A stretch of DNA of 35,554 nucleotides, taken from contig JAAANX010000046.1 in NCBI GenBank assembly GCA_009909085.1, positions 1 through 35,554 of the forward strand. The letters run 5' to 3'. The stretch comes from Cyanobacteria bacterium GSL.Bin1 (GTDB taxonomy: Bacteria > Cyanobacteriota > Cyanobacteriia > Cyanobacteriales > Rubidibacteraceae). The position numbers and the translations under genes are program-made. Positions 33,588-34,310 of the stretch are shown here, in pieces. Below the pieces are notes generated by a model that saw nothing but the letters and a program-made list of their open reading frames with translations, was not told where the DNA came from and did not search any database. The stretch's first letter is position 1; the number at the start of each line of letters is the position of its first letter.

Positions 33588-34310
33588 TCAAAAGGGATCA
33601 ATGCGACCAACAACTTCCAGTTGATTTTCCGGATTGACTGCTATGACCACCATTTCTCCTGACGAAACGCCACTGCCACTTAAGGCTGAGATATTAACAA
33701 AATGAGTGACCATCACAGTTACCCCTGGTGTTTCTTCCTGTTCCCGCATCAACTGCCGCACTGCCGCCGTTTGTTCTGACTGGGTAGAGCGATCGCGAAA
33801 GAAAGAGTTTAAGGGAGGAAATGGCTTGACCGGACCCAAATCCATTAATTTTGCTGTATCTAAACAGCGACACCACTGACCAACGGTCGTAGCAGGCGCC
33901 GGAATTTGATTCCGGCGTAATCTGCGACTCGATAAGACCTGGTCCACTTCAATGTTCCGCTGCTGAAAGGCTTCCCCGGTTCGTCTGGCTTGCATTCGTC
34001 CTTCTTCTGACAGATTACGCTGAGTTGAGCAGTCTTCCAGTTCAAAATTAGGCGGATCGCCAGTTCCCGGCGCTAAGGCATGACGCATCAAAACAAAATA
34101 ATGGGTTTCAGCTTGTTGCAGTTGTGACCACAGACGGTCTTCGGCATCAGTGCGTTTCGTTCCCGTTTCAGTTTGAGTCTGATCCGTTGCTGATCCTTGA
34201 ATAGTAGGGGAGGAAGTTTGGGAACCCCAGTGGGCACATCCGGTAACGCTCAACCCGATCATACCTAGCGTTAAGCCAATCGCTGTTCGTGGAAAAGATG
34301 ATAGATTCAT
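33588..34310 (-). CDS. Histidine phosphatase family lipoprotein
   Basis: 240 residues. The N-terminal signal ends in a lipobox at Cys25 (LSVTGC), so it is probably a membrane-anchored lipoprotein in the envelope. The catalytic core has MRHALAPG (Arg76, nucleophile His77), QWCRCLDTA and the second His203 in VMVTHFVNIS. Homologues read VLSS directly followed by QWCRCLETA. Here 16 extra residues (129-144, RRLRRNQIPAPATTVG) interrupt this, encoded by a palindromic DNA insertion (33879-33926). The catalytic Arg after the insertion (about 148) is kept, so activity may survive if the loop is tolerated. Physiological substrate unknown. Confidence 0.88.
   Translation of the reverse strand: MNLSSFPRTAIGLTLGMIGLSVTGCAHWGSQTSSPTIQGSATDQTQTETGTKRTDAEDRLWSQLQQAETHYFVLMRHALAPGTGDPPNFELEDCSTQRNLSEEGRMQARRTGEAFQQRNIEVDQVLSSRRLRRNQIPAPATTVGQWCRCLDTAKLMDLGPVKPFPPLNSFFRDRSTQSEQTAAVRQLMREQEETPGVTVMVTHFVNISALSGSGVSSGEMVVIAVNPENQLEVVGRIDPF
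33879..33926. repeat. In-frame palindromic insertion inside phosphatase gene
   Basis: 48 bp with a perfect 8-bp stem, CGCCGGAA (33897-33904) and TTCCGGCG (33910-33917) around TTTGA, plus a smaller GACC/GGTC hairpin at 33878-33888. It adds 16 residues without breaking the frame, exactly between two conserved blocks of the protein. GTC occurs at both flanks and may be a short target duplication. No second copy was found in the window. Confidence 0.55.

Follow-up and report, generated by a model that had tools for sequence, protein, structure and literature searches.

In the 35,554-bp contig JAAANX010000046.1 of Cyanobacteria bacterium GSL.Bin1 (the window; contig C46 of a 4.82-Mb genome), the gene of a histidine-phosphatase-like protein carries 16 extra codons in frame. 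We conclude that this insert is probably one copy of a very short, non-autonomous, mobile palindromic family with a 48-bp unit, which would insert by the mechanism proposed below. Copies of the element are dispersed, several have empty counterparts in relatives, and the filled sites have gained 48 bp beside a pre-existing TNAC or similar motif. The first-pass annotation of this DNA had read the insert as a mobile palindromic element, and the copies, the empty orthologues and the covariation of the stems all support that reading.

33588..34310, minus strand: host gene, histidine-phosphatase-like protein of 240 amino acids with the in-frame insert (open reading frame (ORF), Pfam and structure matches)
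33879..33926, minus strand: 16 extra codons, residues 129-144 (missing from 7/7 aligned homologues)

The protein reads ...VDQVLSS-RRLRRNQIPAPATTVG-QWCRCLDTA..., and counting codons from position 34310 places residues 129-144 at 33879-33926, i.e. 48 bp. The 16 residues that had been reported to separate VLSS from QWCRCLDTA are indeed missing from all seven aligned homologues: the orthologues in genomes G035 (53% identity) and G009 (49%) and five distant proteins (26-32% identity). The alignment leaves out a 67-residue frame (locus L063) that matches residues 176-238 only. The match to Pfam His_Phos_1 scored 19.5 bits, under the cut-off of 21.7, and the AlphaFold model (mean predicted local distance difference test (pLDDT) 76.8, predicted template modelling score (pTM) 0.71) was matched to structures of SixA, PhoE and PGAM5. 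In this model the insert is predicted to lie between a strand (residues 124-127) and a helix (146-156), with residues 137-143 at pLDDT <50, consistent with the loop that had been expected there. The homologue alignment shows an invariant R148 shortly after the insert, which we take to be the phosphate-binding arginine of the family, and the insert near it may alter the activity of the phosphatase. No match to the phosphatase gene was found in five same-genus genomes or in G006, yet orthologues occur in the distant G035 and G009; this patchy spread suggests gain or repeated loss. A wider search for the phosphatase in genome_contigs returned 30 pattern stretches, none of which was confirmed.

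We described the element by a covariance model, R1, in which the hairpin has two parts.

33877..33929, plus strand: the modelled palindrome with its target TGAC, spanning the 53 columns of R1 (R1 78.5 bits, E 4.9e-17)
33881..33928, plus strand: 48-bp unit in the register CAACGGTC...GAC (empty site in G009; tandem copies at a 48-bp period)
33877..33880, plus strand: left flank TGAC, presumed target (empty allele ACTGAC/TCGAT in G009 on this strand; the slash marks the junction)
33885..33892, plus strand: outer stem, 5' arm, contains GGTC (fold, covariation)
33922..33929, plus strand: outer stem, 3' arm, contains the right-end GAC (fold, covariation)
33896..33904, plus strand: inner stem, 5' arm (fold, covariation)
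33910..33918, plus strand: inner stem, 3' arm (fold, covariation)
33878..33888, plus strand: small alternative hairpin GACC-AAC-GGTC (sequence; forms in the minus-strand fold of this copy)

Other registers of the 48-bp unit are equivalent, because GAC is shared, and the period is seen directly in tandem copies, e.g. at G002:C1:19375 and 19423. Both the perfect 8-bp stem (CGCCGGAA/TTCCGGCG, 33897-33904 and 33910-33917) and the second small hairpin of the first-pass annotation are present, but it had missed the larger outer stem (33885-33892 with 33922-33929), which runs past the 48 bp it had delimited. The predicted fold of the 53-nt element has an energy of -28.4 kcal/mol (z -4.9), as low as none of 200 shuffled sequences. 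Seven gap-free copies over 53 columns gave the outer stem at columns 9-16/46-53 and the inner stem at 20-28/34-42. In these seven copies 11 cells were changed on both sides (shuffled mean 3.5, 0/500 as high), and shifting the stem partners reduced pairing from 95% to 34-43%, while two weaker covariation measures were matched by 17/500 and 59/500 shuffles. Across 98 copies without gaps, every stem pair was standard in 82-100% and the pair types were numerous; G-T pairs were frequent at some positions (61/98 at columns 9-53, 77/98 at 20-42).

A search of the genome with an 86-bp query gave seven hits at E <= 3.5e-4, one of them the query's own place, and TGACCAACGGTY was found 51 times, compared with 2 for the same pattern read backwards. 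R1, counted at E <= 0.01, gave 65 matches in this genome, corresponding to 61 distinct places after removal of opposite-strand calls. The five same-genus genomes had 41, 8, 47, 11 and 1 matches, G006 of the same family 28 and G026 of another family 34, with none in the remaining 32 of the 40 genomes searched. Several copies in this genome and its relatives had been anticipated, and 7/39 other genomes have them; the alternative outcome, a unique sequence with an unconserved hairpin, is contradicted by dispersed repeats with compensatory changes in their stems. With stricter filters and E <= 1e-6, R1 found the element in 8 of 386 genomes of the phylum (this one, G001-G004, G006, G026 and G326, the last with a single copy). 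R1-supported copies were also found in Lyngbya aestuarii BL J, Hyella patelloides, the unicellular cyanobacterium SU3, two metagenome-assembled genomes (MAGs) of Xenococcaceae and a Pleurocapsa MAG. When spread beyond the phylum was examined with R1 on 80 of at least 120 pattern stretches, all 29 loci with at least 27 bits were cyanobacterial, and the best non-cyanobacterial match was from Streptomyces (23.1 bits). R1 did not match some of the cyanobacterial pattern hits (e.g. L148, L153 and L169), nor the hits that recur in Candidatus Magnetocorallium, and viral contigs gave no matches to the element.

For the analyses that follow we used 123 distinct copies, 61 from this genome and 62 from relatives, kept from 81 and 67 R1 matches after dropping the same place in overlapping loci, opposite-strand calls of one palindrome and partial matches. 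The 62 copies from relatives are the best-scoring of about 170 in seven genomes, and fractions are to be read for this set and not as genome-wide. Identical 48-bp units are present at different sites. At four loci (L011, L030, L032 and L033) the flanks around the copies are near-identical and lie amid small ORFs, showing that the element has also been copied within a larger repeat.

Mobility is best seen at the empty sites. With 20 copies as queries, 30 loci from among the listed matches were examined, and 16 alignments spanning the junction were obtained for 9 of the 20; alignments poor at the junction (L014, two of L019, L029, and L005 against G002 and G004) were left out. On the plus strand of the element, the empty sites read ATTTAC/CAAG for L015 in five genomes, TAAC/TCTTC for L025 in G002 and CTGAC/TTTA for L069 in G001; that of a molybdenum hydroxylase gene reads TTTGAC/TACG in G001, and that of the phosphatase gene ACTGAC/TCGAT in G009. 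The alignment of L031 spans the junction as well, with substitutions at the target. Filled sites retain the left TNAC, finish in GAC and are longer by 48 bp. Because the left flank (TTAC in L015, TAAC in L025) differs from the right-end GAC, no more than AC can have been duplicated. The four bases on the left of the 98 full-length copies are TGAC in 63, TAAC in 7, TCAC in 3 and TTAC in 2, i.e. TNAC in 75/98, with 16 others besides TGAG. An A at column 50, in the right end, is found more often with T at column 12 (9/19) than with C there (4/77). The right end thus tends to change along with the foot of the hairpin, which would be expected of a part of the element.

Which copies lie within genes was judged by a codon score trained on the long ORFs of the same loci, a rough gene finder. 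The majority of the 123 copies fall outside the ORFs scored in this way. In 21 the flanks are coding-like in sum, and 16 of these have a coding signal on both sides, in unrelated hosts, in line with the prediction of copies in different genes. Besides the phosphatase, the hosts are the molybdenum hydroxylase (L008), a Uma2 protein (L014), riboflavin synthase (L022), a Dus protein, near its C-terminus (L024), a DUF4351 protein (L029), a cNMP-binding/sigma-54 protein (L039), a PD-(D/E)XK nuclease (L040), an Omp85 protein (L108), a DUF192 protein (L111), a photolyase-related protein (L112) and three proteins without a Pfam match (L035, L038 and L094). A NAD-binding/CIA30 gene (L044, 1501-1600) contains two tandem in-frame elements at the 48-bp period, which add about 32 residues. 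In L109 (1501-1553) the element is in an intein/LAGLIDADG-bearing protein, after a GDP-mannose dehydratase-like part; here one selfish element sits within the region of another. Outside the 16, one copy lies between the PAS and GAF matches of a histidine kinase (L090; left flank score below 0), and four at gene ends (L020, L107, L121 and L125) may be untranslated or may form extensions. The length of 53 columns was found in 15/16 intragenic and 83/107 other copies, figures from which we draw no conclusion on coding selection.

Orthologues without the insert, which had been predicted for the phosphatase, were also found for two other hosts. In riboflavin synthase it is missing in 13/13 relatives, the closest 91% identical (the G013 protein aligns one residue within the gap), and in the model of this enzyme (pTM 0.54) the later part of the insert, residues 34-45, is predicted at pLDDT <50. 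None of the four molybdenum hydroxylase orthologues that were examined, the nearest of them 90% identical, has the insert, and alignment of this enzyme with the structure 5y6q leaves a 16-residue gap near the start of the second cofactor domain; the Uma2 protein aligned with 1wdj also shows a 16-residue gap. The phosphatase and riboflavin synthase models support a position in a loop, and not that the insert is harmless; the alignments are shallow.

The 48-bp length is divisible by 3 and some frames often contain no stop codon, so that a copy landing in a gene can lengthen the protein by 16 residues and leave the reading frame intact. In the 98 full-length copies, in or out of genes, one antisense frame is stop-free in 83, one sense frame in 37 and the others in 31, 24, 20 and 4. 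The 19 full-length copies in scored ORFs use these frames, in the same order, 9, 7, 2, 1, 0 and 0 times, i.e. 9 times the one antisense frame, 7 times the one sense frame and 3 times two other antisense frames. The first-pass annotation had expected the same coding frame throughout: a bias is real, but a single coding frame is ruled out, as several are used. The bias needs no frame-aware insertion, because stop codons filter the frames. The present intragenic copies would then be survivors in loops that tolerate extra residues, copies carrying stops or causing misfolding having presumably been purged.

The stems themselves appear to be rewritten in blocks. The arms of the internal loop are CAGG/TAAT in 59/98 copies, ATTA/TAAT, where the left mirrors the right, in 4/98, and CAGG/CCTG, where the right mirrors the left, in 2/98; the terminal loop is GTTTA in 33 and TAAAC in 10 of the 98, i.e. 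flipped end for end. Among these rewritten or flipped copies, some share an identical unit and do not count as separate events. Template switching within the hairpin could explain the block changes and much of the covariation too, with mirrored arms and end-for-end loops as its products in the inner stem. Because it can yield covariation, the latter shows structure and not an RNA function. Longer forms, of up to about 169 bp, contain further palindromes nested inside the same ends. Several stretches (L334, L341, L345 and L346; the shorter L285, L333, L337 and L344; also L071 and L087) have the same left end, and several of them the same right end. To judge from their sequences, the long nested versions are a modular, accreting family.

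IS200/IS605-type insertion sequences (IS) and their hairpin-only derivatives insert 3' of a short target without real duplication, and the foot of their hairpin can pair with the cleavage sites. The element resembles them in its position 3' of the short TNAC target, a pairable hairpin foot and duplication of at most AC; it differs in its size of 48 bp and in that no cognate TnpA was found, the ends at 13 Y1 loci being unlike by eye. By analogy, an HUH (Y1)-type transposase provided in trans would deliver the element, as a folded single strand, to the 3' side of TNAC, and the GGTC at the foot of the hairpin would pair with both the right-end and the left-flank GAC. In this genome one full element (L254:928-979, G000:C210) lies about 520 bp from a Y1 remnant, the sole such neighbour found there. 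Among its six Y1 loci, only L254 has an R1 match above 13 bits. IS200 ends as the source of the element were rejected, since the flanks of the 13 Y1 loci, judged by eye, show no likeness to it.

Several results weigh against a mobile element inserted in this way. No transposition event was observed and no cognate transposase was found. Y1 transposases were found in 9/9 relatives searched, the element-free G007 and G008 among them, and only one of 30 Y1 loci of relatives had an R1 match, of 16 bits only. Targets other than TNAC occur (TGAG in 7/98 copies), the empty alleles of L005 (in G001) and L024 carry substitutions relative to the left flank, and a 2-bp target duplication is indistinguishable from none at the shared AC.

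Of the alternatives, a repetitive extragenic palindromic element (REP) of the usual GTAG or CGTC super-families, mobilised by a REP-associated tyrosine transposase (RAYT), fares best, although we consider it unlikely. As described in PMC3733652, REPs are alike in size, small hairpin form, compensatory stem subfamilies and occasional copies within ORFs, RPE-4 and RPE-6 being included among the latter, and cyanobacterial families (GTAG-12, -15 and -16) are known. A match to the RAYT model above cut-off was found in G001 and G026, in 2/10 genomes only, and not in this genome with its roughly 60 copies. The element lacks a regular tag: the left foot has GTAG in 7/98 and CGTC in 1/98 copies and the right foot neither of them (0 and 0 of 98). 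No R1 match was found at the 12 RAYT-model loci (E <= 5; flanks of about 1.5 kb), and the copies of this genome, by inspection of their R1 matches, are chiefly single or head-to-tail and seldom inverted pairs. With the tag mostly missing and no RAYT neighbour in 12 loci, we rejected this assignment.

If the element were a miniature inverted-repeat transposable element (MITE) derived from a cut-and-paste (DDE) insertion sequence that duplicates 2 bp, the inverted hairpin ends and the shared AC beside the unit would be accounted for. We regard this as slightly less probable again, because an oriented TNAC present on the left only is at odds with symmetrical ends and no parent with these ends was noticed. 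The parent search covered 20 pattern places outside the R1 list, reading about 115 bp from each left end with no whole-stretch translation; the 19 stretches around these places held palindromes, nested or variant, and matches that are probably due to chance, and a longer parent with the same left end was rejected.

That the element is a structured RNA or regulatory element, such as a terminator-like or processing site with the genic copies as by-products, would suit the strong covariation, the common G-T pairs at some positions and the majority of copies outside scored ORFs. This seems improbable to us: five loci had no Rfam match at gathering scores, template switching can also make covariation, and the clean empty sites and functionally unrelated hosts point to mobility first. 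An ordinary lineage-specific loop of the phosphatase, for which it could be said that the window protein is the sole phosphatase seen with the insert and that five same-genus genomes lack a match to the gene, has practically no chance of being right and is refuted by the recurrence of the same DNA at dozens of other places, unrelated genes included (seven with the 86-bp query, 61 with R1).

Returning to the mobile palindromic family, it acts like both Rickettsia palindromic elements (RPEs) and REPs, and it fails the REP tests that were run. According to PMC10969869 and PMC2229807, RPEs of about 105-150 bp lie in frame within Rickettsia genes. Dispersed palindromes in frame in unrelated genes, tolerated as added peptides, are what the two have in common, and here the orthologues are empty; the element differs in being cyanobacterial, 48 bp long (about 169 bp when nested) and inserted beside TNAC. 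The likeness to Rickettsia noted in the first-pass annotation therefore stands for behaviour, compared by description and not by sequence. That annotation also knew of no coding-compatible element in cyanobacteria. We found no description of this one in the open-licence literature searched, cyanobacteria included, although REP families of cyanobacteria are known, as PMC3733652 reports.

The small dispersed repeats of Nostoc-type cyanobacteria are similar in being very small, mobile and cyanobacterial. Those described by Elhai and colleagues in 2008 are reported to be shorter, and no in-frame coding family is known among them.

We tentatively suggest, as a possibility short of an even chance, a dedicated cyanobacterial lineage of 16-codon insertions, delivered as a folded single strand to TNAC by an enzyme other than the known RAYTs, stacking by 16 residues, with a template-switched stem, and so continually feeding short peptides into working enzymes that include riboflavin synthase. 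Palindromic elements inserted in frame are known best from Rickettsia, and the outcome here is the same, reached in another phylum and with a unit of exactly 16 codons. Filled and empty alleles are found in relatives whose host proteins are about 90% identical, and the hosts have solved homologues. This opens to testing by what means a hairpin of 48 bp moves when no partner is obvious, and how an enzyme is affected by a naive insertion of 16 residues.
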